The position numbers and the translations under genes were made by a program. This document shows positions 1-41,196 of a stretch of 64,000 bases of DNA, one piece after another (position 1 is the first letter of the stretch; every line of letters begins with the position of its first letter). The DNA comes from Yamagishiella unicocca (Eukaryota > Chlorophyta > Chlorophyceae > Chlamydomonadales > Volvocaceae). The notes beneath the pieces are model-generated. The model was not told the DNA's origin. It worked only from the letters and a program-made list of their open reading frames with translations, and did no database searches. Location: NCBI GenBank assembly GCA_003116995.1, contig BDSL01000115.1, positions 186,001 to 250,000 of the forward strand, given 5' to 3'.

Positions 1-3000
1 CGGTGCGGAGGACGCCACTCGCTGCCGGGCCCCCGGCCGCCCCCACCGCTGGCGTGTTCTTCGAGCAGGGCTGCTGGTGCCTGTCGCGGCCCAGCACCAC
101 ATCGGCCGAACGACGTGGCGAGCCGCCAGAGCCGGTGAGCGCCGCCGCCACCGCCGTCGCTGGCGGCCCCACCGCCGCCGGAGCTGAGCGGGCCGCCGTA
201 CGCTCTTGCGCCGCCGCCCCTGCCTCGCGCACGTCCGACGGCTGTCGCCCGGCCGAGTGCCGTTCGTGACCCACCGAGCCCGTCTGTTCTAGCGCGGCTG
301 GCAGCTGCGCCGCCGAGCCGAGTAGCTTGGTCAGCGGCGACTCCACCGATGGGGTCTCCTGCAGCCGCTGGGGCAATGGATGGGATGCTGCGGACGGCAG
401 GCGGTCTGCACGCGCGTCGTGACACGACACGACCGGAGCCGGCGGGAGCCCAGCTGGCGCCTCGCACTGTGGCCGCTGCGGCTGCTGCGGCCGCTGCGGC
501 TGCAGCGGATTGAGGCGCGCCGCCTTCACGGGCCTCGCCTGCCCCTCCGCCTCCTTGCGCAGCCCCTGCCGGGGCTTCGGCTGCGCCCCCTCAGGCCTGC
601 GGTGCCTGGACTGCTGGGCGGTGGGGGAAGCCAGGGACGCGCCGCCACGGCCCCGCCGCCTGCCGCCGCCGCCGCTGCTGTTGCCGCTGTCGCTTTCGAT
701 GTCACCAGCGCCGCCGCCAGCGACGCCGCCTGTCTCCGCCAAGTCGGCCGCAGCCCCATCCGCTGTGGGGCCGCTGGGTTGGACCGGTGAGGCCGCCCGC
801 GCACAGGCGCTGCGGGTGCTGTAGCCGCTGGAAGCGCCGCCCCAAGCAGCAGACGGGTCTCCCCTCGAAGCCCCATCTGCCACTCCCCCCAGGAGCTGGG
901 CGGCTCGTCGGGCGGCAGGCTCGGCGGTGGAGGGCTGGTGCGACGCCGCTGCGGCGGCAGAACGGCGCGAAGGCGCCGGCGGCCACCGCGGGGGGAGTCC
1001 GATGCTGGAGGCAGCAGCCAGTCGAGCCGGCCCGGCGGCCCTGTCGCCCCCCGCGGATTGGCCAGCGGCGGCGGCGGCGGCGGCGGCTGCCGCGGCGGAG
1101 GCGCCGGTTGCGGTGCCGTACTCCGCCAGTGTAAGGGCGCGGAGGGAGGCTGTCCGGCGGGGCTGGGCTGCTCCGTCGCTTCCTGCCAGCCTGGCCGCGG
1201 CCCCGCATGCGTGCGGACTGGTGAAACGGCGCCGCTTCAGAGCCGGCTCCCCCTCCTCCTTCTCCTCGTCCTCGGCCTCCTCCTTGACCTTAGCGCGGAG
1301 ACCTGCCTCCGCCCTCGCAGTTTCGCAGCCGCCGGGGACGCGGCTGCCGCCGCTGGCGGGGGTGGCGGCGGCAGGTTGGAAACCCCGGCAGGTCTCAGCG
1401 CTGGGGCCGGCGGTCGGTCTCGTCGCGGGGGACGGAGTTGGGGACGAGGGGCTCCGCCGCCGCCGCCGCCCCTCGGGTTGTGTCGCGGACGGCCCCCCCT
1501 CGCCGCTCGCCTTGGCCCCCGCCACGGCTTCCGCAACACCAGACGACGCGGCGAAGGTGAGTGAAGCACCACAACCGCCAACCGACTGCGCCCGCCCATC
1601 CATCGCCGCCGCCGCCGCCGCCGTCGCGCCGGCGGCGGCGGCGGCGGGTGTCTGCACGCCCGGGGTGGTGCCTGCCGCGTGGATAGCCGCACCGCTGGTG
1701 GCGGCTGCAGCCTGGTCGGCGGCGCAATGACCATACCCGTCGTCATCGTCATCCTCCTCCTCCTCGTCTTCCGGTCCAATGACGATCACCCGCATCAGCG
1801 GGCAGAGGCCCGCCGCCGCTTGGGGACCCGCGTCCAGCGCCCGCGCCGCTGGCGCTGCAGCCGCCGCCTGCGGCTCTGCCGCTCGTACGCCTGCCGCCGC
1901 TTCCCCACACGCCGCCGGGGTCACACCAGCTGCTCTGGCGGGAGTGGCTGGCTCTGAGAAGACAGTGGTTGCACACGCGGCAGCTGCGGCAGCGGGCGGC
2001 TGTCCCAGGGGCAGCCCGGCAGAGCCAACTGTAGGCCGCTCCGCCAGCTGCGCCCCCTCCTCTGCCTCCTCCTCCTTCTCCGCCTCCTCCTCCGCCTCCT
2101 CCTCTGCCGTCATGGGGAGGCCGCATCGCCGCACCGCCTTCTCCGCCGCCTCACACACCTACGGTACACAACAACACACGGCATTCGAACACGTGTACGA
2201 CGTGTACGACACAGCGCACAGGAGGTGGGGCCGCTGTGCTTGGTACAGGTAGGTACAGGTAGAGGCGCCGCAGCGACAGCAGCAAGCGTAGGGGCTGGGA
2301 CTGGCAGCGGCCAGGTGGCCCCCGTGGCGTGATTGTGGCTTTGGCGAGGGTGCAGGTGCGTTGTGAGGGGCAGACGGCTACTACCCGTATCAGGATGGCA
2401 GGAGGAGATGGTGGTGGCGGTGATGGTGGCGGTGGCGGCGGTGGTGGTGGTGAGCCCCAGCAGCAAGCGCGCGTGGCGCAGCAGGCCCCCCCCGGTGGCA
2501 CGCAGCAGCACGACACGGGGTCCGGCCCGCTTCGCTCACCAGCCTGTTCGCTAGTTGGACTCGGTCGGCAACCTGGGCAGGGGGACGGGCGAGTAGGTGC
2601 ATCAGGGCTTCCGCTCTGCAACCTTGGTTTGCAGCCTTGGGAATTGGCAGGAAGCGCTGCGACACCGTACTCCCGCCACGTACTGGTGTGGCAGCAGTAC
2701 GACACCGTACTCCCGCCACGTACTGGTGTGGCAGCAGTACGACACCGTACTCCCGCCACGTACTGGTGTGGCAGCAGTACGACACCGTACTCCCGCCACG
2801 TACTGGTGTGGCAGCAGTACGACACCGTACTCCCGCCACGTGCTGCTGCCACACCTCGTTTCACGTCCCGTACCGTACCGTCACTTCCCTGCCCCCTCGT
2901 AACCCAGTGGCTTTCGTATCCCCAACCCAGTTCTCCAGCATGCATCTCAAAACGTCTGTCCTAAACGGTTTTTTCTGGCATCCACGGGTCTTCCTCGAAA

Positions 3001-21774: not shown

Positions 21775-23062
21775 CAGAGGGTGGGCATGAGGCACTAATC
21801 CACTTATCCGGCGGTCACAGCGGATAAGTCATTTTCTAATCCAAGGGCGGTTTTTAATACTCAGGGCAGCGATCTTAATAAGCCGGGGCCGCCGTTCCAA
21901 TACTCAGGGCAGCAATCCCAATACGCCGGGGCCGCCGTTCCAATACTCAGGGCAGCAATCCCAATACGCCGGGGCCGCCGTTCCAATACTCAGGGCAGCA
22001 ATCCCAATACACCGGGGCCGCCGTTCCAATACTCAGGGCAGCAATCCCAATACACCGGGGCCGCCGTTCCAAAACTCAGGGCAGCAATCCCAATACACCG
22101 GGGCCGCCGTTCCAATACTCAGGGCAGCAATCCCAATACACCGGGGCCGCCGTTCCAATACTCAGGGCAGCAATCCCAATACGCCGGGGCCGCCGTTCCA
22201 ATACGCAGGTCAGCAATCATAATACGCTGGGGCCGCCGTTCCAATACGCAGGTCAGCAATAATAATACGCCGGGGCCGCCGTTCCAAAACTCAGGTCAGC
22301 AATCATAATACGCCGGGGCCGCCGTTCCAAAACTCAGGTCAGCAATCCAAATACGCCGGGGCCGCCATTCCAATACGCAGGTCAGCAACCATACTACGCC
22401 GGGGCCGCCATTCCAATACGCAGGTCAGCAGTCATACTATACCGAAGCCGCCGTTCCAATACGCTGGTCAGCAATCCTAATACGCCGGGGCCGCCGTTCC
22501 AATACGCTGGCCAGCAATCATACTACGCCGGGGCCGCCATTCCAATACGCAGGTCAGCATCCTAATACGCCGGGGCCGTCGTTTTACCCGCTCCGCCCCC
22601 CCCCCTCCCCAGGGCTCAGCTGTGCTCTCTCTCTTTCTCTCAGGCTGCGCACCCAGGCTGTCTGCCTGGTATATCCCCGTCGTAGCAGCTACTGTATCCC
22701 ACTTTCCGCAACCCAACACTGAACATACAGGCTACCGCCCCTCCCACAGGCCACGACCGAAAGCCACCTGTGCCGCGGCCCCTGCCTCCTCGGCCCCCCC
22801 CAGTCTCACGGTTCTTATACAACCCCCCAGTCTCACCAGCCACCCACGTCCACTGACGGACGCTGGCGGCTCTGCGGCCTCCCTCACGGTTCCCGGCCCG
22901 GCCCTCACATATCGTGCACGCGCTTCTGGAAGCGCTGCCGCTCCCGCGCGCTGACAGACGCCGGCTCCGCCGCGGCCCCCGCGGTCTGTGGGTCCAGTAG
23001 CTGTTGCAACTCCGCCGCCCTGGCCTGCTGCTTGCGCTGCTGTGCAGGCGCGCACCCCTCGC
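21775..23062. repeat. Long terminal inverted repeat shared by TE-A and TE-B (TE-A side)
   Basis: About 1.29 kb here is the inverted counterpart of 40129-41196, the right end of TE-B. Shared parts are the end motif, the 43-bp array (longer here) and the last coding exon of the transposon gene. The match breaks at GCGAGGGGTGCGCGCCTGC. Confidence 0.8.
21868..22580. repeat. 43-bp subterminal array of TE-A, about 16 copies
   Basis: Contiguous units contain AATACGCCGGGGCCGCCGTT and a variable CAGGGCAGCAATC or CAGGTCAGCAATC part. There are no unique spacers, so it is not a CRISPR array. Such arrays often bind transposase, which is an inference here. Confidence 0.9.
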
Positions 23063-24640
23063 GTGGCACACCCCGCCCGCCAGCTGCCGCCCGTGCCATC
23101 GCCGGTTGTGCCCCGTCCAGGATGAAGCTGTTCTGGGCACAGTACCGCTGCAGCTCCTACGTGGCAATGTGGTGGCGTGGTTAGGAATGCATAAGCCACG
23201 CCTACTCACTCAGTATGTCGCAGTTTTGCAGAAGAGCCGCAGCCAGGTCAGCGTTCTAGGATACGTGAAGGACAGCAGAAAAGGTGTATCGTACTCGTGT
23301 ATACGCCGCGCGTACGACACTGGTTGCCAAAGAGCAGCTGTAATGGAATAGTTAAGTTCTCACCTCCCATGTCGCCCCAAACACCACTGTCGACCGAGAC
23401 ATCTGTCGTCTCCCCTATTGCCTCACCTCGCCCCTTGTCCACCCTATTGCGTCACCTCGCTTTTGAGCACAACCTGCCCCCCCCGTCGATCCCAGGTCAA
23501 CCCATGCCTGCTCACCCGCTCGTCCTCAGTGTCCAGCGCGTAAGAGCACCCTGCCCGTGTGTCCGGCGCAGGTCGGACGTTGACCACCTGGACGATCTCC
23601 GTGGCGGGGAAGAGCTGGTTTGGATCTGACTCCACCTGGTGGGGCAGGACGTATTGCCACGGCATGCCATCAAAGAATGGCGGACGGAAGGCGTGCGTGG
23701 CGGCGTTGATGCAGTACAAGGAACTGACGCTAGCCCCTTCCACCCAACCCCCATCCTGCTGCCTTCAAAGCCTCAAACGCACCTTGGGGCCGGAGTCCGC
23801 GGAGCTGCACACGGCCAGCTTGGTTGGCGGGGTCAAGGCGGCGAGTGGCCACCAGCACGTTTGCATTTCCGGCCGGGCCGCGCCTTGGGGCACAGGAGGC
23901 CCTCAGTCATGGCCAATCGCACAACCATCTGCATGCCCTTCTTCACCCGCACTGCCACCACGTCCCCGTCCGACATGTAGTCCTGCTCGCCAGGCTCCAG
24001 CATCTTGCCCGCCTCATGTAGGTCAGCGCAGTCAAAGCGGCGAATGCGGTCGCGGCTCTGACGTGGCAGGATGCCGTTGAGGCAGCGCGCCCAGCGAGCA
24101 GGCTCTTCAAGCCCGGATCGTTGGATGCCAGGCGTGACCGCTTTGCAGGGCCGCTGGTAGAGGGCCGCTCGCCAGCATCGTATTCCTCACTGCAGCTGGT
24201 CCCCACCCGTGCAGCCAGGCCGTTATCTGTGGACAATGGGCAGTACGTAGCGTTGGGGCATAAGTAAAAGACAGAAAAGTAGGATCTGAGCCAGTGAGAT
24301 GTGCTGTGCAGATAGCGCGAGGACACGGTGTATCGCCCACGCACTCCCACCACGCCAAGCTCACCCTCCACAGCGGCATCCTCCTCGCCTTCACTTGGCT
24401 GCTCTGGGTCCTCGTCAGCGCCGGCCACGCTCACGCCCGCCACCGCCCAGCGCAGCGGACACGTAGTACAGGAGATGCAGGTGTGTCTCGTTGTACGGCG
24501 CGCCCGGGACCTCAATACGCACGCGTTTATGCCCGAAATACTTTCTAGCCCGTACTCGGCGAGCTTCTCAACTGCCGTGGGGTTGAAGTCGGGTCCGAGG
24601 TGACCATCTCCGCCACAAGCCGCTAAAATCCCCGGTCGCA
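22905..24640 (-). pseudogene. C-terminal part of a transposon protein (TE-A), decayed
   Basis: Coding stretches on the minus strand lie in more than one frame. One near 24150-24230 contains SCSEEYDAGERPSTSG. One near 23880-24080 contains DGDVVAVRVKKGMQMVVRL. One near 23525-23730 contains PPFFDGMPWQYVLPHQ and NVRPAPDTRAGCSYALD. The last, about 23160-22905, contains QRKQQARAAELQQLLD and ends at a stop at 22905-22907. The last exon lies in the terminal repeat and recurs, frameshifted, at 40129-40290. That suggests this is the C-terminal half of the transposase whose N-terminal half survives in TE-B. Frames are not continuous and no family is recognised in this half. Confidence 0.45.
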
Positions 24641-26095
24641 CAGGGCTTTGACCTGCAATATCACCAGCATAGATATCATGATCATAGGCACAAGTTGGAT
24701 GTCAATGGGACACATTATGCGGGCTTTGTGACATTGGCCTTTGCGGCAATGGGCTCTGCGCCAATGGCGCAAAATCTGGGATCGCTGAAATCACCGGTTG
24801 CACAGGCCTTTGACGTGCAATATCACCAGCACTGGACATCAAGTTGGACATCAATGCGACTCATTATGCGGCCTTTGCGCCAATGGCCTTTGCGCCAATG
24901 GCGCAAAACCTGGTGTTGAGCCCCCAGCCGCCCGGACGGCCCTGCAGCGCACCTCTGGAGCCACCTCTGCTTCCTTATCAGCTGGGGCCGCCCCCCCCTC
25001 CTCGTTCACCGGCTCAGCTTGTCCGCCCTGGTCGACCGCCCCTGTCCCACGCCGCTCCCGCTCCCAATCGCTCTGCTCATCAGGGCTCATCGCAATGGCC
25101 TTCTGGTGGCTTCTACCTCCATGACCAGGACGGATGAGCCCGCCACGAACGATGGGTCTAAAGTTGAGGACCGACCCTTGCGGCAACCCTAACATTGTCA
25201 TACCCTCTGATACCCTATGATAACGATGGTTCAGAGATTATGCCTCAAAGACACGGAAGCTGGTCAATCGTCGCGAGGCTGGCCTGCAATTGACAGGGCA
25301 ATTGGCAATTGAGCCAATTGTCCGGCAATTCACATTGCCAATCGCCAAATGCCTTCCCAAATGCTTCACTGGCTATTACTGAACTGAACAGAGTCAATTA
25401 TCGGACAGAGCTACTATAGGCAGTGTCACAGGTTCTTTGGACGCATCGGATATAGAGTCCTCAACTTTAGACCCATCGTTCGTGGCGGGCTCATCCGTCC
25501 TGGTCATGGAGGTAGAAGCCACCAGAAGGCCATTGCGATGAGCCCTGATGAGCAGAGCGATTGGGAGCGGGACAGGGGCGGTCGACCAAGGCGGACAAGC
25601 TGAGCCGGTGAACGAGGAGGCGGGGGCGGCCCCAGCTGATAAGGAAGCAGAGGTGGCTCCAGAGGTGCGCTGCAGGGCCGTCCGGCCGGCTGGGGGCTCA
25701 AGCGCTCAACACCAGGTTTTGCGCCATTGGCGCAAAGGCCATTGGCGCAAAGGCCGCATAATGAGTCGCATTGATGTCCAACTTGTACAGTGCTGGTGAT
25801 ATTGCACGTCAAAGGCCTGTGCAACCGGGGATTTCAGCGATCCCAGATTTTGCGCCATTGGCGCAGAGCCCAAACGCCATTGGCACAAAGCCCGCACAAT
25901 GTGTCCCATTGACGTCCAACTTGTGCCTATGATCATGATATCTATGCTGGTGATATTGCAGGTCAAAGCCCTGTGCGACCGGGGATTTTAGCGGCTTGTG
26001 GCGGAGATGGTCACCTCGGACCCGACTTCAACCCCACGGCAGTTGAGAAGCTCGCCGAGTACGGGCTAGAAAGTATTTCGGGCATAAACGAGTAT
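24522..26095. repeat. Large palindrome inside TE-A
   Basis: Arms of about 650 bp (24522-25170 and 25447-26095) are inverted copies around a 275-bp unrelated centre rich in CAATTG words. Each arm contains a fragment homologous to the coding exon at 37001-37315, plus an internal near-duplicate of GACCTGCAATATCACCAGC. Confidence 0.85.
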
Positions 26096-26830
26096 TCGGT
26101 GAGGCTTTGCTGGGCTTGGATTACTTGGGGAAGGATCAGTCGGCTGGTGGCTCCACTCCGCCCCCTGCCTTCAATCCGCTCTTGCACACGCCTTCCCCTG
26201 CTCCCCTTCGTTCCCCTTCGTCCGCGCAGGACTCAGGGCTCAGATCCTACCTCCTGTGCTACCCACAGAAGTTGAGGCCGGAAGCGACAAGCCCCCTGAC
26301 TTCAACTGCAATACCAACAACGAGCTATCGCTGCTTGTGTCCAAGGGGCGCGGGTACCGCAGCTTCGCGCACAAGAACTCTGTAATGGCGAACGTAAGGA
26401 CCCATTGCAAAAGGGACACTCACCAGCGTCAGCACGCTGTTGCCACTGCAGTCGCTCGCGCCCAGCCCTTTGGCTTCTACTCGGCTGTCCCGCCCCTGCC
26501 TGTGCGAGCCTGAATGGCAGGGCCACGCCTGGACTAAGCCCTCGTCGCGACAGCGGAGCGGCTGCCGCTTATTGGCAGCGCGCCGTCCTGGGGGAAAGCA
26601 GCGGACGGTGCAGTCAACTTCGGAATGGCGGCGCGTGCAGGCAGCATTGGCGGCGGGGCTTCGAGCGGCGGCAGCACGGGCGCTGTAACAGGCTTGCACT
26701 GAACGGCAGCTGCCGGGAGCGGCGGGGCACCTGCCTGAATGGGGCGGCCCCCGCGCCAACCCGGTCAGTCGGCTGGCACCCGTGTGCGGATGCAGCAGGC
26801 GGCGATGATGCCCATGGGTGCTGAGCCGCT
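25940..26830 (+). pseudogene. Relic of the unknown TE-B protein in TE-A
   Basis: This region contains broken matches to the exons of the gene at 29709-37315, in the opposite direction. They are a CDRG/VAEMVTSD block with a lost base, then VEAGSDKPPD, VSKGRGYRSFAHKNS and QQAAMMPMG. Order is kept but intervening exons are missing, so it is a deletion derivative and not a functional gene. Confidence 0.6.
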
Positions 26831-27059
26831 CCCGCTCCACATACATTGCAGACTATGCACGCTTATGGGCAGGATGAAGCAATTTTGTTGGGCCCTGCAA
26901 GAAGAGTTGTTGTTGGCTTTCAGTGTTTGGTTTACAAGTGGGCCAGGAGGGCCAGGGCCCTGCGTTTGACGAAAATTGCAAGCCTTGAGCCGTTGTGTGA
27001 GGGTCGCCAGGATTGCGTACTGAAGTTGGCCGCCGTTCCAATCCACGGGTCAATTATCC

Positions 27060-27590
27060 TTATTCGCTGGGCACGGTTTCCAGTACGCAGGTTGCCAATC
27101 CCAATACGCCGGGGGACGGTTTCCAATACGCAGGTTGCCATTCCCAATACGCCGGGGCGCGGTTTCCAATACGCAGGTTGCTAAATCCCAGTACGCCGGG
27201 GCGCGGTTCCCAGTACGCAGGTTGCTGATCCTAATACGCCGGGGCGCGGTTTCCAATACGCAGGTTGCTAATCCCAGTACGCCGGGGCGCGGTTTCCAAT
27301 ACGCAGGTTGCTAATCCCAATACGCCGGGGCGCGGTTTCCAATACGCAGGTTGCTAATCCCAATACGCCGGGGCGCGGTTTCCAATACGCAGGTTGCTAA
27401 TCCCAGTACGCCGGGGCGCGGTTTCCAGTACGCAGGTTGCTAATCCCAATACGCCGGGGCGCGGTTTCCAATACGCAGGTTGCTAATCCCAATACGCCGG
27501 GGCGCGGTTTCCAATACGCAGGTTGCTAATCCCAATACGCCGGGGCGCGGTTTCCAATACGCAGGTTGCTAATCCCAATACGCCACCGTG
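27060..27590. repeat. 43-bp array at the inner end of TE-A, about 12 copies
   Basis: Units contain CAATACGCCGGGGCGCGG and TCCAATACGCAGGTTGCTAA. This is the same 43-bp period as the outer array but a distinct sequence subtype. Confidence 0.9.
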
Positions 27591-27638
27591 ACCGACGCCT
27601 AAACTAATCCAGGGGGGATGCCCACCCTCTGGTTCGTT

Positions 27639-27673
27639 TTGGGCAAAGCCAAAACCTAACCTTGGTAAAACCT
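27639..27673. other. Host DNA between TE-A and TE-B
   Basis: Only 35 bp remain between the two target duplications (GTTCGTT ending 27638; AACGGAC starting 27674). With the inner ends of both elements it forms the centre of a long inverted repeat. Confidence 0.75.
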
Positions 27674-27721
27674 AACGGACCTGAGGGTGGGCATCCCCCC
27701 TGGATTAGTTTAGGCGTCGGT

Positions 27722-27865
27722 CACGGTGGCGTATTGGGATTAGCAAGCTGCGTATTGGAAACCGTGCCCCGGCGTATTGGGATTAGCAACCTGCGTATTG
27801 GAAACCGTGCCCCGGCGTATTAGGATTAGCAACCTGCGTATTGGAAACCGCGCCCCGGCGTATAA
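27722..27865. repeat. 43-bp array at the left end of TE-B, about 3 copies
   Basis: Inverted relative to the array at 27060-27590 (units contain GCGTATTGGGATTAGCAACC). The following sequence to about 28120 is the inverted, diverged counterpart of 26840-27050. Confidence 0.88.
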
Positions 27866-28424
27866 GGATCACTGATCCGTGGATTGGAACGGCGGCCGTT
27901 ACAACTGCAGCACGCAATCCTGGCCTCCCTCACACAACGGCCCAGGGCGTGCAATTTTCGTCAAACTCTCACACAGGGCCATGTCCCTCCTGGCCCACTT
28001 GTAAACCAAACACGGAAAGCAAAAAAGAACCCTTTTTGCAGGGCCCACCAAAATTGCTTCATCCTGTCCATAAGCGTGCGTAGTCTGCAATGTTGTGGAC
28101 AAGTCGGGGCCCAAAGTTAACCAGAGCACCCTGTGCCCCGTGAAAAGACGGACATTGCTGCCGGCCTACTTGTCAACCAAGCAGGGAAAGCCAAAAACTA
28201 CCCTTCTTGCAGGGCCCACCGACATGCTTCATCCTGCCTTCAAGCATGCAATGTCGTGGGCAAGTCGGGGCCCAACAGCTTACCCCCCCACACACACATC
28301 GGTTTTCCTTGCTTTCCATCGGTTTTCCTTGCTTTCCTTGCCTCTTTCAGTGTCAGGCGATGCGCCCGATGGCTCTACCTTTTAAGGTCTGGAGCCCACT
28401 GTAACGATTACAACAACACACATG

Positions 28425-29531
28425 TCAACCCCGGCGAGGCGGCAGCGCCCACGCATTGATCCCAGGTACACTGCCCGCACGGGAGAAGACATGGGAAAAC
28501 CTGGCCGAGGCGGGCCCCAGGTATACCACTATGCTCCCAGGCGGATTCTGCTTCCGCTCTCCCCACCGTAGGTCGCCTCCTTGCCCCTCCCTGGCATCCG
28601 ATCCCCCGCTTGCATGGGAAGACTGTACAAAAGCCAGACGCGCATGTAGGAAGCAGATGGGCCACTCGTACACGGCCTGAAACCACTTATATCCTACGCC
28701 GGCCTTCAGCAGCACCACGGCTTGCGAAACACCGCCCGCCCTGTACTCCTCTACACACCTTAAAAAGAACAACCCTTGTAGGCTGGCGCCATCCCTGGTG
28801 CCAAAGGGCGGATTGAGAAAGACGTTGCCAGACCACGCATTACGGATGTCCAGCCCGTCCGCCTCCGCGTCGTAAAAGATGCTTGCGCCCACACGCGTAT
28901 TGGCCTCCTGCGAACTGCATGGGTCAAGGTCAATTGCCCCCGGCCGAAGAACATCTCGCACCAGCTCCAGGACATGGCTGGGCGTGTACCAACTACGGGA
29001 GCTGTGGCTTACGAGGAACACAGGCCGCCCTGTTCGAAGTCGCTTAGGGACCTCCTCAAACACTCCTCCACTCACCCGCCCCTGTGACCCCTCCCCCTGG
29101 CCGTCAAGCCTAACAATGCACGCTTGCACCAGCGCCCCACTCAGTCTCGGCCCTCCTGCCAGGCTTGCCCTCCTGCCAGGCTTGCCCTCCTGCCAGGCTT
29201 GCCCTCCTGCCAGGCTTGCCCTCCTCGCGGCCCCCTGCCATGCCGCAACAGCTACACAGTCTTCAAGGCCTGCCAAGGGCCGCACTTGCCGCTCGTTGCT
29301 GGGCAGCCGTGTGCCCGGGGGCAGCTGCTGCATAAAACGGGCAGCAGCAGCCCACGCGCGGGCCTGGCGGTAACCGAATCCAAGGGATGGTGTTCCCTTC
29401 ACGTAATCGGCAAATGAGCCATAACCCATGCATGCATAAAGCCTGTCTTCGTCGACGTCCAACAATGCTGCACTTGCCTCGGCAAAGAAGCCGCACGCTG
29501 CCCTTGACACACGCGCCTCCGCGGCAGCTAG
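28425..29531 (-). CDS. Dam-type (phage-like) DNA N6-adenine methyltransferase in TE-B
   Basis: An open frame of about 368 codons from 29531 to a TGA at 28425. Using GTG at 29510 as residue 1, residues 1-85 resemble the helical region found in phage and plasmid proteins (YGSFADYV, then TRLPSNERQVRPLAGL). Residues 174-300 match the phage-type Dam family (PF05869 in Pfam): WYTPSHVLELV, then DLDPCSS, GLDIRNAW, the catalytic NPPF at 233-236 and AVVLLKAGVGYKWF. NPPF is the form of the DPPY motif used for adenine N6 methylation. Between the domains are three to four 17-bp repeats that shift the frame by two bases each but leave it open. No intron is needed. A stop lies just upstream of 29531 next to AG acceptors, so the frame may be the last exon of a longer gene. 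Cargo status is secure because it lies within the 7-bp duplications. Confidence 0.8.
   Translation of the reverse strand, partial: LAAAEARVSRAACGFFAEASAALLDVDEDRLYACMGYGSFADYVKGTPSLGFGYRQARAWAAAARFMQQLPPGTRLPSNERQVRPLAGLEDCVAVAAWQGAARRASLAGGQAWQEGKPGRRASLAGGPRLSGALVQACIVRLDGQGEGSQGRVSGGVFEEVPKRLRTGRPVFLVSHSSRSWYTPSHVLELVRDVLRPGAIDLDPCSSQEANTRVGASIFYDAEADGLDIRNAWSGNVFLNPPFGTRDGASLQGLFFLRCVEEYRAGGVSQAVVLLKAGVGYKWFQAVYEWPICFLHARLAFVQSSHASGGSDAREGQGGDLRWGERKQNPPGSIVVYLGPASARFSHVFSRAGSVPGINAWALPPRRG
29148..29222. repeat. 17-bp tandem repeats inside the methyltransferase frame
   Basis: About four copies of CTGCCAGGCTTGCCCTC. The translated stretch (SLAGGQAWQEGKPGRRASLA) is a linker. Because 17 is not a multiple of three, gain or loss of one copy would break the frame. 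Confidence 0.85.
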
Positions 29532-30860
29532 CTAGTAGTTGCAAGTCCTCTTGAAGCCCGCCGTGGGGCAGGCGCGAGAAATTACACACGCACACACATA
29601 GTTCTCGCTCAGCATTTATAAAACACATAGTTCTCGCTGCTTGGTTGGTATAAACCAAACATATACACATAGGTTTTAGCCTCACTCGGACATCACTACG
29701 TGCACGGCTTATAGACAAGAGCAGTTCCGATGGCACCACGTTCTGATCTTTGATCCCGGCTCCTGGGTGATGCGGGCAATCTTGGCCTCACAGCACCTAT
29801 TAACCACGTGCCCCATGGGGCACACCGGGCATTCGGCCCAGAACTTGCCCACCGCCAGGCCCTCCAGGGGAAGGGAGAACCCCTTGCTGTGTGCATCCAC
29901 CCAAGGCGCGCGCGTGCACGTCACTCGCAGGGCACCTGTCTTCCGAACCGGCCGCCTCGTCCCCGTCAGTGTCATCAGCGGGCGACTCCTCTAACTCCGT
30001 GTACCCGGCAGATGCCGACTCAACACCCACGGGCATCATTGCTGCCTGCTGCTTCCACACACGGGCGCCAGCTGGCTGACCGGGCGGGCGCGGGGGCCGC
30101 CCCATCCAGGCAGGCGCCCCGCCGCCCCTGGTAGCTGCGCTGCCACCCATCAGCGCCGCGACCAGCTTGGGTGTCTCTGCCGGGGCGCCTGTAGCGAGCA
30201 GCAGCAGCAACTGGGTCGCGCAGTCCACTGCATCATCGCGGCCGCCCGAGGACAGAAGGCGACTACCAGGGGTAGCTGCCGTTCGGTGCAAGCCTGCTAC
30301 GGCGCCCGTGGTGCCTCCGCCGCGCGGAGCCCCCGCCGCCAATGCTGCCTGCACGCGTCGCCGTTCCGAAGTTAACTGCACCGTCCGCTGGCTTTCCCCC
30401 AGGACGGCGCACTGCCAATAACCGGCAGCCGCTCCGCTGTCGCGATGAGGGCTTCGTCTAGGCGTGCGAGCCCGAACGGCAGGGGCGGGACACCCGAGTA
30501 GAAGCCGCAGGGCTGAGCGCGAGCGACTGCAGTGGCCACAGCGTGCTGACGCTGGTGACTGTCACCTTTGCAATGGGTCCTTATGTTGGCGAGCATGGAG
30601 TTTTTGTGAGCAAAGCTGCGGTACCCGCGCCCCTTGGACACAGGCAGCAGCTGCATGTCCAGCGGGAGGCTGCTTGCGCCCGCCGCCTGCTGTTCTCCAT
30701 CGTCGGTGCTGGCTCCGGTGCTGGACTGATCGGTACGGGCCGGGCTCGGCCGCTTCTGGGCCCGCCCGCTGTTCTCGCTGCCTGCCCCCGTCTCGCTATC
30801 AGACGCCTCACGGCTGGCACTGCGGTGCCCAGGTAGCCTGGCCGGCGGTGGGAGCACGGG

Positions 30861-31503
30861 ACGACGAGGACGGCGATCCGAAATATCGTGCTGCTCGCTG
30901 CGCTCCCCGACTCGGACTGAAAATTTCAAAAATGCAAAAATTCACACGTTCCGAGTCGCAAATCGGCCGACTAAGCTTTGAATCCCGCACTTGCATCTGA
31001 ATTTGCGACCGCGCCTGATTCCCAGTTGGTTATCTTGCCGACTATGGCCTCCCGGTTGGAAACGTTCGTGATGCGGACGCCAGCTGCAAAAATAATTCCC
31101 AAACAAATATTTGTAAACAGCTGCCCAAATAATAATCGCGTTCCGAGTCGACAGGTCTCGAGTGGAAGCAAAAATGAGGCTGGCAGGCGCGCGAGTGGGA
31201 ATGAGCAGTTGAGCGCGCACGCGTGTGGGAAGCTGCGGCAGGGCACGGTACAGCACCGCGGAGGCTGGCGGTTGGTGCGGCGCGCGAGTGAGAGTGCATA
31301 GTCACGCGCGTGCCGTTTGGGAAGCCGCGTGTGTGAGCTGCGTGTAAACTCAGAGACGCATGGCATGGGGCTGCCCCTGTTCCATAAGCTGCCTCTGGGC
31401 GCACACGGTTTCACACGGTTGACAGTTGGGCTCCAGCGCGGGTGGGACTCGCTGGAGTGCACGACAGGCGCTAGGGGGCACGCGCGGGCGGGGCGCAGGG
31501 GCT
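30861..31503 (+). repeat. TE-C left terminal inverted repeat
   Basis: The inverted twin of 35553-36189. A 107-codon frame within it (30978-31301) is repeated without change on the opposite strand of the other arm (35749-36072). It is not judged to be a gene. Confidence 0.9.
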
Positions 31504-32158
31504 CCCGCCCGGCCGTATGGGCGATGGATCCGGGGCGATGGAGTTGTAGCAATTGTGAGAGCACAGCACGTTGTACAGTTCGGGGGAGTTTGGAAAGGGG
31601 GCGATGGAAAATGTACAACAAAGGTCACACCTGAGCGCTGCTAATAAGCTGCGGGGGTAGTGGAAAATAGGAATTAAGTTGAAATAAAATTTGAAAACGT
31701 TGAGTTGCTCTGCAGAACTTCTTGGCAAAGCAGACGAAGTTGTCCGACAGAGGGCCCACGGAGCCCCTTATCTTTGGCGTTTGGCGCCCCAAGGTGCCAC
31801 GGCATAGTGAACGCGCCATTGCAGGCATAGTTAGATAATCATACATAGTATCTGGCGAAGACATATAGTCGTTGTTAAGTGATACAAGTCACCGCAAGTT
31901 CCATGATCTTGTGCTGCCACCGAACGCCCCCGAAACGCTGCAGATGAGCGACAGATGTCTATAGCACCTGAACTAGATGGCAGCAGTAGGGTAATTAAAC
32001 ATATCACCCACCTCCAAGGATATCATAAATCTAGCATTGAACCACGTGAGGCCTGACGGCTGCTCAATAACGCAAAGGGGACAAGAGGAGTTAGTGCATT
32101 ATCCGCAACCCAAAGCGTTTTCATTCAAACCTGCTCTTCTCGACGTTCCGTTTCCGGT

Positions 32159-32722
32159 ATGTGCAGCTTTTCGAAATCTTCTAACGAGCTCGCCCTGGGC
32201 CAGCAGCAGCGCGCCCTGGGACACCGCTCTGCGCTGCAGCAGCGGCGCTTCTTTGTGAGGACCCGCGTGGCGCAGCCGTCCACGAGCTCGGCGACGCCAA
32301 GTGCGGCCACTTTTGAGCTCCGCGAGGCTCTTCTTAAGGGCAACCATTTCAAGCAGCCCCAGGCGGAGACCTTGCTGAATGTCTTCCTTCCTGTGATGTC
32401 GTCCTTGCTCGCGACGTCCGTCAAAGTCTTCCCGACAATGACGGACGTCGCGAGCAAGGACGACATCACACGGCTTGAAGGCGCAATGACACGGCTTGAA
32501 CGCGCAAGCAAGGACGACATCACACGGCTTGAAGGCGCAATGACACGGCTTGAACGCGCAATGAACTCGCGCTTTGACCAGATTCAGCTGCTGGCTGTGC
32601 TGCTGGCGCTCGCGGCGGTCGTCATCCTGGGCCTTGTGGCTGGCGCGCTGATGCTTCTCCCCGTAAACCCCAGCAGCGCTTTTGGCATGGTGGTTTCCGC
32701 CTTCATCAAGAAGAACATTTAG
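32159..32722 (+). CDS. Small coiled-coil membrane protein carried by TE-C (DUF1640-like?)
   Basis: A 187-codon uninterrupted frame from an ATG. The N-terminus is Arg/Ser-rich with RRFFVRTRV, typical of a mitochondrial presequence. The middle (residues about 48-75, FELREALLKGNHFKQPQAET) recalls the DUF1640/CCDC90 family, in which a short helical domain precedes a coiled coil and a C-terminal membrane anchor. A heptad-like segment follows, with the unit ASKDDITRLEGAMTRLER duplicated in tandem. A hydrophobic helix lies at about 145-168 (LLAVLLALAAVVILGLVAG). It ends at a TAG at 32720. It sits between the TE-C inverted repeats and lacks introns, so it may be a captured host gene. The family link is from pattern memory only. 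Confidence 0.5.
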   Translation: MCSFSKSSNELALGQQQRALGHRSALQQRRFFVRTRVAQPSTSSATPSAATFELREALLKGNHFKQPQAETLLNVFLPVMSSLLATSVKVFPTMTDVASKDDITRLEGAMTRLERASKDDITRLEGAMTRLERAMNSRFDQIQLLAVLLALAAVVILGLVAGALMLLPVNPSSAFGMVVSAFIKKNI

Positions 32723-33239
32723 TGTCGGTGAGTGATGGACGGGCGGTTGCGCAGCGCAGGGCGGTTGAGGGCGGGGGCGGAGCGGGGTGCTGGGGCTGGC
32801 AGCATGTGTGAGGCTGCCGAGTTTCTAACCCGCTGCATATTTCCGCTCACCCCAGCTTGCAAGGCAGGCCCCTTCACGCCGGCGTTGCTCTCCCACTCAG
32901 CATCTGCACGCGTGGTGGCTGTGAAGGAACGAGCTGCAAACCGGCGGCAGCAGCCAGGCTTTGCACGGTCTCGCAGCACAGGGGCGGTTCCACAACATGG
33001 TGCGCTGCCACTGCTAGCGGTTCATGGACGGGGTTACGGAGGGGTGTGCCCTGGCGGTTTGATTTCGTGGGGGGCGGCAAGGATGATAGCTGAGGGCTGG
33101 ATGGGGCATGCCGCGCCCCATCGTATGCATGTTTTGCGGGACCCTGAGCAGCACTCATCGTGGTACTGTGGCTGTCGTGCTGGGCTCGCACTGCGTGTAT
33201 GGATAAGGCGGCGTGCAGTGCTTTAGCTCGCTGGCCGTG

Positions 33240-35552
33240 TATTTTTAATTGGCAGGCGGCAAAGACGGCGTAATCAGTAAACCCACGTCTTGCATTGCGG
33301 CATGTTCTGTGCTGGTTCAGGCGGCCATTGCTCATGTCAATATGTACGAATGTCGCACTGATGTACAACAACAATGCGAGGCAGAACTGTACAACAACGC
33401 GAAGTAGGACTGTACCTAGTAGATGCAGGGGTGCAACCAACCTGCTGTAGATATACCTACTGGACAACATATGTACTGGATGACAGGCAAACCTGGGCAA
33501 CAAGCGTGTGCAACGTGTGCTATGCACCCGCTGCTGTGTCCGTGCCTAATAGGGCGGTGGTAATATAGGATTGCGTGTGTACCTGTGAATGTCGAGCATA
33601 TGTAACCATGTGGAGCGTCACAATCATATAATTGTTTTTGGGGCTTGGCACGGTGCCAAGTTTGGTGCTGTGTGGGCGGGCCATGCGTACGGAAGCCTGT
33701 TTTGGCGCAGAGATAGAGCCCAGGACTCGTCTTTTGCCTCGTTAGCAGTCGGCCTAGACGGCCTACGCTGGAACGGCAGAGCTGGGCTGATTGCGGAGCT
33801 GGGGCTGACAGACCGGCTGGGAGACAGCGAACAGCCAAGGGCACTTACACTGCAGGACAGCTCAAACCGCAAGCGAGCGCGCGGCGCGCACCACGCGCGC
33901 CACCGCACAGCCACCGCCACACACCAGCGCGCGAGCGCAGCGCTAACAAAGCAGCGAACAACCGCCAGAACCAGGGCGGCAGCACCGACAAAACGAACAA
34001 CAGCAACAACGAGGCCACACAAACACCGCCCAGCAAGCGGACAACGGCCGCGCGAAGCCAACAATGCCGCGGCGGCACACCAGCAACACCAACCGCAACA
34101 CCCCCCATGCCGTGGCCTCGGCCAGGGTTCCCGCAACGAAAAGCAGCTCCAGGCTAACGCCACAGGGAAAAAGCACGGAACCCTGGCGAAGCACAAAATC
34201 CCCTGCGGCAGCCTGGAGCGCGCTAGCCCAAAACAACCCCAACCCAACGGCGGGGCAGCGGGCTGCACGGACCCCCTCGGGGGCCCACCCGACTGCCCCC
34301 TATGCCGCCGCAACTAACCAAACGCTCACACCAACACCAACACGCGCCACACGCCGCTCCAGAAAGCGCCGGCTCCCCGCCGCTGCGCGAGCAGGGCTCC
34401 AGGAAGAGGACGCCGAGAGCGACGCCTCAGCCGCGGCCGCAGTGGCCGCGGCTCTCCAGTGACACGGACCTGGGGCGGGGGCGAGCCGCGAGGCTCGCGG
34501 GCGGGAACAGGAGGGCTTGGTCAATAAAATGAACCGCTCGAAGCGGTGAGAGCTGCTCTACAGAGAGGCAGAATGCCGAACGGTAGAGAGCACCGAACAC
34601 TAGACTGCTCCGGCCGTCTTGTACGGCCTCCATGCCAACTAACTCCGGTTAGCCCGGCCTCGCTCCGCTTCACTCTGCTCTGCCTGACTAACCGATACGT
34701 TTGCGTATCGGACTCAGACTGAGCCGTGCTCAGCCATATAACCTGATGGGGAGTAGCCCAGCGACTGACCCAGCTTGCCACAGGCACGCGGCGTCCATGC
34801 CTGCCTCTCGCGGCTGTTAGAGATGCTAAAGTGCTGCGGGGTAGTGGGCTAGTGGTGAATGCCAGTAAGTGCTGGTGGTCTGAGGACGGCTGGGCTTGGG
34901 CTGGGTTGTGCTCCATGTTAGGTGTACGACCGTTGGGCTGTGGTGCGGTGCTGCCGGCCTGCCAAACATTCAATGTCTGGAATTTATTAACTCAGTAATA
35001 CCCACCTCAACTGGCTTTCGGCATGGCGTGGGTTGCCACGGCCTTTGCGACTGGATAGTGGGCCAACTGGGTACTGGCCTGCCAAAAATGCGCGTTACCA
35101 ACCTCCAAAGCCCTCCAGAGCCCTACCTCCAGAGCCCTCCAGAGCCCTTCAGAGCCCTTCAGAGACCTTCAGAGCCCTTCAGAGGCCTGTGCAGATCCCT
35201 CCAGAGGCTGAGCGGCTCTGAAACAGCCTGTGTCAGGAATGCCAGACCACCCTCAAAGCGGCAGGAAGCCGCTTTCTAGCTCTGGCTGCCTGCGAAGCAG
35301 CTGCAGGAGGACCTGAGCGCCGACGCTTATTGCGCGCTGCGCAAGGTGATGAATTGAACGAGCGCGGAGCGGCGTACCCCCAACGTCGGTTCACTGTCCC
35401 AATAAATTACGATAATGTTTACAGCTAATTATACGCTAGCAAGGTTGGAGGGGGGCCCCCGAATGGCCACTTTTCGGTTTCACTCCAGTTTTGGGCGAGT
35501 TTGCGCGAGTTTTACCCAAGTTTTGCGCGAGTTACCGCCGAGTTTCCTGCGA
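33240..35552. other. TE-C internal region without a clear gene
   Basis: No supported coding region. Around 33850-34320 the sequence is compositionally odd: GCAA/ACC-rich on the plus strand, coding for Arg/Ala/Thr/Gln-rich peptides in one frame. A hairpin (CCGATACG...CGTATCGG) lies near 34690-34713. Around 35105-35200 there are tandem CCCTTCAGAG/CCCTCCAGAG words. Confidence 0.5.
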
Positions 35553-36189
35553 GCCCCTGCGCCCCGCCCGCGCGTGCCCCCTAGCGCCTGTCGTGCACTC
35601 CAGCGAGTCCCACCCGCGCTGGAGCCCAACTGTCAACCGTGTGAAACCGTGTGCGCCCAGAGGCAGCTTATGGAACAGGGGCAGCCCCATGCGTCTCTGA
35701 GTTTACACGCAGCTCACACACGCGGCTTCCCAAACGGCGCGCGCGTGACTATGCACTCTCACTCGCGCGCCGCACCAACCGCCAGCCTCCGCGGTGCTGT
35801 ACCGTGCCCTGCCGCAGCTTCCCACACGCGTGCGCGCTCAACTGCTCATTCCCACTCGCGCGCCTGCCAGCCTCATTTTTGCTTCCACTCGAGACCTGTC
35901 GACTCGGAACGCGATTATTATTTGGGCAGCTGTTTACAAATATTTGTTTGGGAATTATTTTTGCAGCTGGCGTCCGCATCACGAAAGTTTCCAACCGGGA
36001 GGCCATAGTCGGCAAGATAACCAACTGGGAATCAGGCGCGGTCGCAAATTCAGATGCAAGTGCGGGATTCAAAGCTTAGTCGGCCGATTTGCGACTCGGA
36101 ACGTGTGAATTTTTGCATTTTTGAAATTTTCAGTCCGAGTCGGGAAGCGCAGCGAGCAGCACGATATTTCGGATCGCCGTCCTCGTCGT
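35553..36189 (-). repeat. TE-C right terminal inverted repeat
   Basis: The inverted copy of 30861-31503, ending in CCTCGTCGT and followed directly by the duplicated CACGGG. Confidence 0.9.
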
Positions 36190-38099
36190 CACGGGGATTG
36201 GAGGGTCGCATATTCCGCAGGCCCATGCCCCGACCGCTAATGACCCGTCGGCTTGGATCAGGGTCCGGTCCTCGTTGCCCCTGACGAAGATCATGCACAG
36301 GCACCTCTGACGCTCGCTGGGAGGCAGCACGGCGCCCAGTGGGTACTTTGTCACACACATCAGTCGCTTGTCTTCTGCAGTCGCATTGCCCTGTGGGAGC
36401 AAGGGTCAAAGGATCTTGTTAGGCATAGCTCTCTGTCATGCAGGTGCCACATCCTGGCGTCTCACAACAGCTTGTAGGCGGCATGATGGCACCCATCGCG
36501 CCCTCCATGTGTTGCATCTCACTATGGGTTGCATCATGCCGGCTTGCCTTCCGATTCCTCTCACGTAGGTTTACTCTTCCGCGCCCCCCCCCTTCCGCCG
36601 GCCCGTCCCTTAACTGCCCTCCTGTGTTCCACGCCCCCTCCCCTCACCCCAATGGCCTGCACCAGCTGGCTTGTCGTCAAAGGTGTTGTTGACCGCTCGT
36701 CCTTCTTGCGGCGGGGTACGCTGGTGCTCGCAGCAGACGAGCGAGCTAGCCTGAGCAGCTTCTTCTTGAGAGCCAGCGATAGCTCTTTGTTGGGGATGCA
36801 GCCGTACTCAGGGGGCTTGTCGCTTCCGGCCTCGACTTCTGTGGGTAGCACAGGAGGTAAGGTCTGAGTACTGAGTTCTGGGCGGACCAATACGAAAAAG
36901 GGGTGCAGGGGAAGGCGTGTGCAAGAGCGGATTGAGGGCAGGGGAGTGGAGCCACAGTCGACTGGTCCTTTCCCAATTAATCCAATCCCAGCAACCTCAC
37001 CGAATACCGCTTGGATGCCCGAAATACTTATTAGACCGTACTCGATGAGTTTCTCAATTGCGGTGCGGTTGAAGTCGGCGTCCGAGGTGACCATCTCCGC
37101 CACAAGCCGCTCAAATCCACGGTCGCACAGGGCTTTGACCTGCAATATCACCAGCATATATGTCGTGGTCATAGGCACAAGTTGGACGTCAAGCTGGGTG
37201 TCCGTCTCGTCCTTACACGCCGGGCGACCAGCTGTCAGAGGAGGTGGCGGAGGTGACGAAGTCGCAGCCGGGGCGCTCTTCAGGGCGTCCATATCGTACA
37301 GCGCTTTGAAGCCTGCTGTAAGCGGGTTATGTTTAAACAGACCGGGACATATGTACGGTAGATGGCGCGGTGGCATATTTCCGATACGTCCTCACCCTTC
37401 CGTCCCCACGTACCCTGTTGGCGAATTCCTCGCGCTCTGTGTCCTCCGTAGTTACCTGTGATGCAGTTTAAGTGTTAGGCAAAAGCGTCGAGGCTGCGGC
37501 TACGAAAATGGGCTAGCGACCCAGCGGTTCATTCCGACGCTGCGAGCAAACAGAAGCAGATTGCTCACATACTCCTCTTCGTTGTCTCCGGCGTGGACAC
37601 CTTGACAGCCCGATTCCTCCACCGAACAAGAATGGCACGACGAAAGAGGCGCCTCAGTCGATGGGTCGCCTGCGGATAGAGACGACGTCTTGCCAGAAGA
37701 TGTAGACATTGCTCTATACAAGACGGACCACAGCGCTATCGCTGCAAGACTTCAGGTATAGGTGACCCAATGAAATGAGCATTGGCGGCTTAGGTGTTTT
37801 TTCCCGCCCCTGTCCGTCGTACACATGGAAAGGATGGAATGGTAAGTAAAACACGAGCACCTACTCAGCCGTTGTTGCTGTGGTGAAGGATTTCTATTTG
37901 AATATAGTGAAACTCTTTGTAAATGTTCCTGCCCACATGCAGCTTGTGGCGCGCGCTAGTTGTTTTAGTCACGGAGCAATGGCTAACACATTGCAGCAGC
38001 CGCCTGCGTTCCTGAGAGGTTTATTTACAGTTATCATAGCCGCTTGACTATAGGCGCACATCTTGAACGAGACTTAAGCTCTAGGGTCCCTTTGCGCCG

Positions 38100-40128
38100 A
38101 TGGCGCAATATCTTCTGACGCCGCGGAAGTGCCCACTCTGCGGCGATGTGCATTCGCTAGACACATGTTTCTCATGTCGGGTGCCCACCAACGTAGTCCT
38201 GGTGCCTGGCTTCGCGAGGGCCATTCCTGCACCTTCTGCTTTCCGCGGTTCGCCTGCACCACCAACCCGAACCTTGACAATCGCCAGTGCTTATTGGAAA
38301 AAGAATTCAATGTGGGCTTACGGGGAGCCTTCTGTCGTCCTCGCCCATCGCCCGGTCTGGAGCCCGATTTCATTCAGCGAGCGCAGCATCGCCGCAAGGC
38401 ACTCATGGGCATGTTCCTGTGCCCAGGTGTGTGCGGCTACCCGCACCTCAGCGACAAGCGGGCGCCCGGTGGGACAATCACGCCTGCGGACGGCGACGGG
38501 GCGCTAAGTCAAGACCCGGAGCTGCTCCACTGGATGCCGTAACTCAAGCAGGTGTGCGGGAATCAGAAACGGGGTGCACGAATGTCGTAACACACACGCA
38601 TCCCATTTGTACACTCCTCCTCCCCCCGCCACCTTCCAACGCAGCTAGATGGGCAGGACCTGCCTGCGTATGTGGGAGAGGGAGACCATCTGCGGTCCAT
38701 GCTGTGCGCGGTGATCACTCCTCTTGGCGGTGGCCCTTGTAAAGCGTGCGCCCAGCTTTTGGTCAGCAGCCTCCACCAGCTTCCCCGTGCTGAGCAGCGC
38801 GCGGATGCACGCCTGCAGCGGCTGGCTTCAGGCCAGGGCGTGGAGTCACGCACGAGCCGACGCGCTCTTCAGAGCATGGAGCCCCGGGAGCTGACTGTTC
38901 GCGTAGTTGCGTCTCTGACAAGACAAGCACATGGCTCGTGCACTACACCACCTGAGGACGGGGACAGCGAGACGCTGTGCGTGCTACTGGAGGAGGCACT
39001 TGCTAAGGGTGCGTCAGTTGCTTGTGTGCTTGTGCAAAAACTGTAGAACCAATCCCGACGGCAGGATGATCAGATGCTAGCACATTGGCGTAAAGTTGCC
39101 CGTGTTTGTGTTGTCCATGTTTGCAGGAAAGCTCCAAGCTGGTTCGGCTAACTTCAACTTCATTCGGGACTACCTTCAGCGATTCATGGACCCACGCTGC
39201 TCCCTCAGTGCGACTACTTGCACGCTATACACCACCCTCATGACCTGGGCCGGTCCACGGGTACACGGCCTGGTGGCCTTCAATACCAATGGTCCCCACA
39301 GCCGCACGAGTCGAAAGAAACGTGCGGAGGGAGCATATTTCCGCAACAGTCAGTTAGCAGCAAATGTTGCCGGGGTAAGGCTGCGTGCTGTCAAACGTCG
39401 GGGGTGGGACCACAGAACGGGTTGCTGCCCAATCCCTACCTATTGAAACTAGGCATAGTACGTTTAGTAAGACCTTGTGATTTCCATCCTCACCACAGGC
39501 GCTGGGGCTGCTGGCCAAGTACGAGACGTCCGGGCAGGTTCAGAGGCCCCTAGTGATCTGCAATGATGCATCAGCGGTTGTCACGCGGCTGGACGTGGCT
39601 TGTCGGGATGGGGAGAAGTGGCTCTATGGCATCGTCGGCGGAGAGGCCCGGGTCGACAGCGTGGATAATGCGTGCGGCCCAGTGAAGCAACATGGCCTAG
39701 CTTTGCAGCTTGACGTTTATGTAGGGGCTGCCGCCACAGCGCACGGCCCGAGTGTGCCATTGTTGACCAACGCCACAAACGGCGCGCTCAAGGCCACCGA
39801 CGTCAGCAGCAACCTAATGAGGGTGCTCCAAGAGCTGGATGATCAGAGCGCGCCTGTGATGTCGCACGTGGCAGATGGTGCTTCAACCAACAGGTGTGGG
39901 GGGGGCTGGGCAGCTCACTGGATCGCCGGGTAAGCTGCTGGGCTCGATCCACAAGGTGGCACATGTCACATTGCCTTGTCTGTGCCTCCCCTTTTGTCCT
40001 TTTAGGACAATGAGCAAGGACCTGTGCGTCCTCGCACGCTCTGCAATGGACCCCCGCGGGCTCATGATTGACCTCTGGCTGCTGGAGTGCTTCGCGCCAT
40101 GTCTCATCGAGCGGCCCATCACCAGGCG
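38100..40128 (+). pseudogene. RNase H-like transposase of TE-B, truncated
   Basis: The start is cysteine-rich: CPLCGDVHSLDTCFSC in one frame, then HSCTFC and CPGVCGYPH in another to a stop near 38540, implying a frameshift. Four later exons join in phase: 38645-39008 (CKACAQLL), 39127-39374 (FNFIRDYLQRFMD, SRKKRAEG), 39499-39893 and 40006-40128. Exon 39499-39893 has ICNDASAVVTRLDVACRDGE, with YGIVGG just after, and ends in SHVADGASTNR. Two Asp-containing strands of this kind are typical of RNase H-fold transposases, and the DGASxNR motif recalls P-element relatives. Coding stops where the terminal repeat begins at 40129, where the C-terminal exon is present only in a frameshifted form. Superfamily assignment is tentative. 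Confidence 0.55.
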
Positions 40129-41196
40129 AGGGGTGCGCGCCTGCACAGCGGCGCAAGCAGCAGGCCAGGGCGGCGGAGCTGCAACAGCTACTGGACCCAC
40201 AGACCGCGGGGGGCGGCGGAGCCGGCGTCTGTCAGCGGGGGGGGGCGGCAGCGCTTCCAGAAGCGCTTGCACGATGTATGAGGGCCGGGTGCCTGCGGAG
40301 CCGGGAACCGTGAGGGAGGCCGCCGAGCCGCCAGCGTCCGTCAGTGGGCGTGGGTGGCTGGTGAGACTCGGGGGCCGAGGAGGCAGGGGCCGCGGCACAG
40401 GTGGCTTTCGGCCGCGGCCTGTGGGAGGGGCGGTAGCCTGTTGAGTGTTGGTTTGGACCTGGGGCAGCCCCAGCTCAGATCGGCCCCACGCCATTCTCTT
40501 TGTCTTGAGGGGGGGCCCTTGGGTGCGGAAGGTGGGATATAGTAGCTGCTACGACGGGGGTATACCAGGCAGACAGCCTGGGTGCGCAGCCTGAGAGGAA
40601 TAGAGAGTGACCACAGCTGACCCCTGGGGAGAGGGGGGGCCGGAGCGGGCAGAACGGCGGCCCCGGCGTATTAGGATTGCTGACCTGAGTATTGGAACGG
40701 CGGCCCCGGCGTATTAGGATTGCTGACCTGCGTATTCAAACGGCGGCCCCGGCGTATTAGGATTGCTGACCTGCGTATTGGAACGGCGGCCCCGGCGTAT
40801 TAGGATTGCTGACCTGAGTATTGGAACGGCGGCCCCGGCGTATTAGGATTGCTGACCTGCGTATTGGAACGGCGGCCCCGGCGTATTAGGATTGCTGACC
40901 TGCGTATTGGAACGGCGGCCCCGGCGTATTAGGATTGCTGACCTGAGTATTGAAACGGCGGCCCCGGCGTATTAGGATTGCTGACCTGCGTATTGGAACG
41001 GCGGCCCCGGCGTATTAGGATTGCTGACCTGAGTATTGGAACGGCGGCCCCGGCGTATTAGGATTGCTGACCTGAGTATTGGAACGGCGGCCCCGGCGTA
41101 TTAGGATTGCTGACCTGAGTATTGGAAAACGTCCTTGGATTGGAAAGTGACTTATCCGCCGTGACCGCTGGATAAGTGCCCCATGCCCACCCTCAG
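40129..41196. repeat. Long terminal inverted repeat (TE-B side)
   Basis: The inverted counterpart of 21775-23062. It begins with a degenerate copy of the transposon C-terminal exon (40129-40290) and ends with the TE-B terminus. It is shorter than the TE-A side mainly because its array has fewer copies. Confidence 0.8.
40655..41125. repeat. 43-bp array at the right end of TE-B, about 11 copies
   Basis: Units contain GGCGGCCCCGGCGTATTAGG and ATTGCTGACCTGAGTATTGG or the CTGCGTATTGG variant, in the opposite orientation to 21868-22580. Confidence 0.9.

Follow-up and report, generated by a model that had tools for sequence, protein, structure and literature searches.

In bacterial Tn10/IS10, Dam methylation near the ends times the movement of the element and the expression of its transposase. 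The methyltransferase of Tn10/IS10 is, however, that of the host, whereas the Dam-type gene described here is borne by the transposon itself. Green algae are models for N6-methyladenine (6mA), and the enzymes that write 6mA in these organisms are unsettled. If transposons bring adenine methyltransferases of their own, some of the 6mA in these genomes could be the work of parasites instead of the host, and base modification by transposons, be it for escape from silencing or for self-timing, would become testable as a counterpart of the fungal transposons mentioned below.

In eukaryotes, a Dam (PF05869) methyltransferase domain is established for DIRS retrotransposons (PMC3783388, PMC5890265, and PMC3266345). 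DIRS elements and the 13.5-kb element examined in this study (element B) are alike in being eukaryotic transposons with a Dam-type domain; DIRS elements, however, have reverse transcriptase and tyrosine recombinase but no 7-bp duplication, and the DIRS Dam domains of the present genome are not recognisably close to the Dam-type protein of element B (P0001). In algal giant viruses, Mariner-2_PGv and Mariner-1_OLpv possess a methyltransferase gene in addition to that of the transposase (PMC3627910) and resemble element B in that the methyltransferase sits in a TIR DNA transposon. These Mariner elements are nonetheless reported from viral genomes, have Methyltransf_26 and cytosine-C5 domains instead of PF05869, and do not belong to the elements with a 7-bp duplication. 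A base-changing enzyme, thought to counter silencing, is likewise aboard fungal DNA transposons, in the form of TET/JBP dioxygenases (PMC12730594); there, cytosine methylation marks are removed and the transposases are known, whereas the writing of adenine methylation is predicted here. Furthermore, the adintovirus-like regions of Amoebidium contain Dam genes (PMC11244446), i.e., on integrated mobile DNA in a eukaryote, but those regions are virus-like with capsid and polymerase genes, none of which were seen in element B. The word “methyltransferase” is absent from the text of an article on volvocine transposons (PMC8226300), and none of the titles and abstract openings covering part of the literature on methyltransferases or 6mA and transposons pointed to PF05869 Dam in a nuclear inverted-repeat transposon. 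Dam in retrotransposons and other methyltransferases in TIR elements are known, and, with no report found, PF05869 in a nuclear inverted-repeat transposon is apparently new.

A Dam-type coding sequence inside an inverted-repeat element

The features identified in the window, i.e., the whole stretch of 64,000 nucleotides from Yamagishiella unicocca that was analysed, are listed in Table 1. Element B starts with CTGAGGGTGGGCAT and ends with its reverse complement, so that 14-bp inverted ends are formed, and AACGGAC flanks both of them; its neighbour, element A, has the ends CAGAGGGTGGGCAT with GTTCGTT at either side. The assembly (133 Mb) contains 115 occurrences of the 14-base end CWGAGGGTGGGCAT (places were listed for 100 of these), as opposed to 0 for the reversed control. 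Among the loci read, exact pairs of CWGAGGGTGGGCAT-type ends were bounded by a perfect 7-bp duplication in nine of nine cases, namely A, B, four more copies of six kb (L057-L060), and three short copies of 48, 501, and 541 bp. With five of five copies in the sister family described below, these nine pairs display, at several insertions, the inverted ends and fixed-length duplication of a cut-and-paste TIR DNA transposon, and the original prediction that the Dam frame lies within a 13.5-kb element with inverted ends and a 7-bp target duplication is borne out.

Table 1. Positions of the elements, exons, and repeats in the window
Feature	Position	Strand	Remarks
Element A	21775..27631	.	5.9-kb relative without Dam; 7-bp duplication GTTCGTT
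Element B	27681..41196	.	13.5 kb; TIR CTGAGGGTGGGCAT; 7-bp duplication AACGGAC
Left subterminal tandem repeats of element B	27728..27897	.	
Last, Dam (PF05869) exon of the minus-strand gene of element B	28425..29531	-	open frame, profile matches
Probable exon upstream of Dam	29940..30230	-	open frame, borders by eye
Exon with zinc-finger-like motif	30437..30859	-	common to V. reticuliferus P0002 and family-3 repeats (sequence matches)
Nested inverted-repeat element splitting the Dam-type gene	30857..36193	.	arms 30857-31504 and 35551-36193, 98.6% alike
Probable exon like the N-terminal part of V. carteri P0005	36194..36390	-	E 1.7e-4
Probable exon, helical region	36660..37376	-	present in element A copies too
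First exons of the Dam-type gene	37405..37709	-	37405-37613 matches sister family 2
Candidate transposase gene	38646..40128	+	four exons by eye: 38646-39008, 39127-39374, 39499-39893, 40006-40128
Right subterminal 43-bp tandem repeats of element B	40652..41134	.	

The Dam frame consists of 368 open codons and a stop, and its product, P0001, matched the Pfam Dam family with an E-value of 1.3e-7 and 31.9 bits, which passes the cut-off of 28.1, over positions 11-130 of 169; in a stitched six-frame Pfam scan of element B, Dam scored 27.1 bits, slightly under the same cut-off. P0001 also matched PHROG 111, “DNA methyltransferase,” at E 7e-20 and contains the motifs WYTP, DLDPCS, NPPF, and VLLKAGVGYKWF (the VLLKA...KWF stretch), among which we take DLDPCS to be the AdoMet motif and NPPF to be a form of the catalytic NPPY/F motif of the Dam family. 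The frame had been assigned to the phage-type Dam enzymes by these motifs, with a profile search against Dam families proposed as the check, and both the motifs and the profiles uphold this assignment. The assembly contains 71 matches to the frame, which together with the TIR and duplication anatomy exclude a chance open reading frame and also confirm the earlier statement that the frame is not contamination.

The N-terminal part of P0001 had been described as phage-like as well, and this part indeed aligns with P0016, an unlabelled two-part Dam protein of prokaryotic/phage type that is 25% identical over 97% of P0001. Five unlabelled metagenome proteins of the same type (P0018-P0022) are 26-29% identical over 86-96% of P0001. 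When phages were searched with P0001 by tblastn, 200 records were obtained, 193 of them from Vibrio phages; the 15 matches listed were 33.7-33.9% identical in the Dam half only (48% of the query), and a query coverage of 80% was reached by none of the 200 records. A match to P0016 in Gordonia phage Flatwoods extends across two genes, one for a helix-turn-helix protein and one for a methyltransferase. The structure model of P0001, which is of moderate quality (pLDDT 67.6), has a helical N-terminal part. A fold search with this model gave no significant match (best E 0.1), its top rows being methyltransferases including E. coli Dam at non-significant E-values of 0.1-0.7, and a search of solved structures with the Dam alignment found nothing.

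The Dam frame does not stand alone but forms the final exon of a longer gene on the minus strand, and the first ATG of this gene lies near 37709 (exon borders by eye). The exon with the zinc-finger-like motif matched V. reticuliferus P0002, upstream of its Dam, at E 9e-7 and family-3 repeats at E 7e-12, and the stretch 37405-37613, which by eye spans a similar first exon, is 74.5-77% identical to a stretch upstream of Dam in the sister family in the same orientation. A likeness of 36561-37376 to P0010 noticed by eye was unsupported (E 1.9). Because a nested inverted-repeat element sits between its exons, the Dam-type gene of the window is probably broken. This nested element has arms of ~640 bp and, judged by eye, possibly a duplication of 4-5 bp (ACGG or CACGG); no convincing Pfam match was obtained for the 187-aa frame that it contains at 32159.

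The candidate transposase gene runs away from the Dam-type gene and is probably cut short; a 3' fragment that extends to 40278 has its match in element A, where other exons are found. The candidate protein scored 14.3 bits (E 0.053) against the P-type RNase H profile PF21787, below the cut-off of 24.6, and a search of the genome with a P-type transposase profile gave no match, as did its control. No homologue was found at E 0.001 in a protein database search with the candidate, the four matches in a genome search were all exons of the same gene in the window, and no transposase match was obtained in a six-frame Pfam scan of element B and five of the six frames of A. Folding of the RNase H-like exon alone was uninformative (pLDDT 38), and the levansucrase and the cytochrome that appeared in a solved-structure search with the transposase candidate were dismissed as chance matches. 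Kyakuja-Dileera-Zisupton (KDZ) was rejected, given that PF18758 occurs once in the genome (C71) and neither in the window nor in the element. A and B may be different deletion products of one larger parent, in which a partner transposase gene is likely; this gene, for which 38646-40128 is a candidate, would be possibly P-like.

Relatives of the Dam-type protein and its predicted activity

Two protein database searches returned 15 and 23 proteins, the named relatives being from Volvox carteri, V. reticuliferus, and Tetrabaena socialis; these carry DLDPCS, and most of them NPPF. A tree of 18 full-length proteins, composed of 12 algal-type (6 of them unlabelled metagenome rows) and 6 phage-like ones, separated the algal-type rows from the phage-like proteins by a branch with 100/100 support; as short, cut, or differently built proteins, P0012, P0013, P0015, P0017, P0023, P0024, and P0025 were left out. 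In a Dam-domain tree of 31 rows, with viral rows thinned from 81 loci, the 17 algal-type rows again stood together (88/85), although branches were long and four divergent viral rows adjoined them. A scan of bacterial genomes yielded one relative, in an Acidobacteria MAG. As a reading of these sequences, a single capture of the Dam-type gene would be the simplest.

In the alignment of relatives, DLDPCS is invariant, and NPPF is replaced by NPAF or NPAL in five of the 16 aligned relatives. Such replacements would suit a protein that does not methylate and regulates transposition by binding DNA through its N-terminal helical and zinc-finger-like parts; indeed, the N-terminal part is helical in the model, and the zinc-finger-like motif lies upstream. 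The other ten algal-type rows, P0001 included, nonetheless keep NPPF, and with the invariant DLDPCS this makes a purely regulatory protein improbable in our view. The motifs kept in most relatives favour an adenine-methylating activity, which is a prediction only; P0001 itself differs from most relatives at two conserved positions.

Diverged and split Dam-family genes were also seen at three loci around which we recognised no ends of the CAGAGGGT type: L147 (C25:116000-122500), L150 (C9:690000-695500), and L054 (C63:199000-207999). The catalytic motif is altered in those on C25 and C9 (NPPS and FPPV), and these are possible host genes. Another locus, L056 (C54:646000-653999), has with L018-L022 a 3.54-kb unit of a Dam exon and 21-bp minisatellites; this unit is in tandem at C54 and also present on many small contigs, with no CAGAGGGT-type end pair seen.

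The Dam-type sequence is repeated in two related element families

In the family of element B, the six-kb relatives read (A and L057-L060) have the ends and several interior pieces in common with B, and the Dam exon is absent from all five. The 3' part of the exon is found at locus C55, where it is joined to the same end as in B (92% identity in the exon and 96% in the end). Between the window and C55 copies, 7 nonsynonymous changes (142 sites) and 2 synonymous ones (50 sites) were counted, with no sign of purifying selection. Because GCAAGGG lies on both sides, at 2761 and at 4349 directly after the element end and nowhere else in the 6.5 kb read, the C55 copy may be a deleted insertion. Within this locus (L053, C55:203500-209999), at 2761-4355, the zinc-finger-like exon is inverted-duplicated around a short spacer, and the far side is without the usual TIR.

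A sister family (family 2) has the ends CAGAGGGTATCAA, which occur 57 times in comparison with 2 for the reversed control. Pairs of these ends within 15 kb number 21, and 19 of them enclose Dam matches, accounting for 34 of the 71 matches of P0001; the Dam-bearing elements measure 3.1-3.3 kb in 18 cases and 6.0 kb in one, and the remaining two pairs, which lack Dam, measure 252 and 634 bp. All five copies with both flanks read (C9, C7, C29, C39, and C201) have a perfect 7-bp duplication. In the sole 6-kb copy, C201, which was read for a transposase, the extra DNA proved to be low-complexity sequence. Dam is decayed or split in all 19, with one in-frame TGA in 13 and two separate pieces in six, and in the copy that was read completely, Dam contains a repeat of 65 bp. 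These sister copies are moving remnants, and the copies read in this genome are decayed or deleted derivatives.

The view of Dam as a transposon gene therefore stands in part: it is repeated in the sister family, in 19 of 21 pairs, but is not a standard component of the CWGAGGGTGGGCAT copies, where the expected presence in other copies of the element came down to the partial exon at C55. The term “cargo” given to it in the original prediction may at the same time be too weak, because in both families the Dam-type gene belongs to the element, has several exons, and starts with a similar one. The elements might instead have picked up role-less copies of a Dam-type gene that the alga had gained once. 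Dam-family genes without recognised element ends do exist in the same genome (L054 on C63, L147 on C25, and L150 on C9), the element copies are decayed and the recent ones show no constraint, and all five six-kb elements manage without Dam. This passenger of host origin is, however, at odds with two element families sharing a similar first exon in the same orientation, and we regard it as rather unlikely, if by no means negligible. Because two families carry it and 19 of the 21 sister pairs keep it, Dam looks like an old gene of the elements.

Dam-bearing retroelements and a possible role of methylation

A search of the genome with PF05869 gave 17 matches, four of which were read in addition to that of the window. 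Two of them, L152 (C46:353300-355000) and L154 (C53:425900-427300), are LTR-type retroelement frames with a Dam domain, which in L152 (E 4.4e-7) lies between gag (PF03732) and aspartyl protease (PF13650); L154 is alike by eye. These LTR-type carriers are the third kind of transposon with a Dam-type domain in one genome. The other two, L153 (C47:343300-344700) and L155 (C50:69300-70200), have RNase H followed by a Dam-like domain and are DIRS/PAT-like, the PF05869 (E 4.1e-6) and PF00075 (E 5.1e-5) matches of L153 both being slightly under the cut-off.

Given these frames with RNase H and Dam, and the PF05869 domains of DIRS elements (PMC3783388), the Dam frame of element B might be taken for a fragment from a DIRS or PAT retrotransposon lodged inside the element. 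This has hardly any chance of being correct: compared with P0001 by BLASTP, the frames with RNase H and Dam gave no meaningful match (best E 0.47), the six-frame Pfam scans of B detected Dam only, with no reverse transcriptase, RNase H, or recombinase, and the nearest non-algal relatives are two-part phage-like proteins. A DIRS/PAT identity of element B as a whole was rejected likewise, as retroelement domains are absent and TIRs with a 7-bp duplication are present instead.

We consider that the chances are even for the following explanation: the inverted-repeat elements own a Dam-family gene, and its protein, predicted to methylate adenine-N6, likely marks the element or its control regions. 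The gene would have been captured from a phage or a bacterium, and intact copies, elsewhere in the genome or in relatives, would be expressed. Their product would be catalytic, methylating adenine-N6 of DNA, and would act on transposon DNA so that the element or its control regions are marked; such a mark might then provide escape from silencing or the timing of transposition. A more specific form, which we put forward tentatively and which is on the whole unlikely, would be that an algal transposon lineage took a phage adenine-methylating enzyme into its own gene set and now marks the ends of its own copies with 6mA, by which transposition would be gated or silencing blocked, as a self-supplied version of the Tn10-style Dam, with DIRS/PAT-like and gag-protease retroelements having recruited Dam-type domains separately.

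GATC showed no general enrichment in the element ends. CTAATCC/GGATTAG is densely repeated in most ends but lacking in the interiors and in the right end of B, and TTCCAA and CAATCC are present in all six end regions scored; these words were picked after looking at the ends. Such subterminal words are candidate transposase or methylase sites, and we claim no target site among them. Subterminal tandem repeats are found in both families, at 27030-27900 and 40650-41196 of the window and at 2432-2640 and 5560-5762 of L055.
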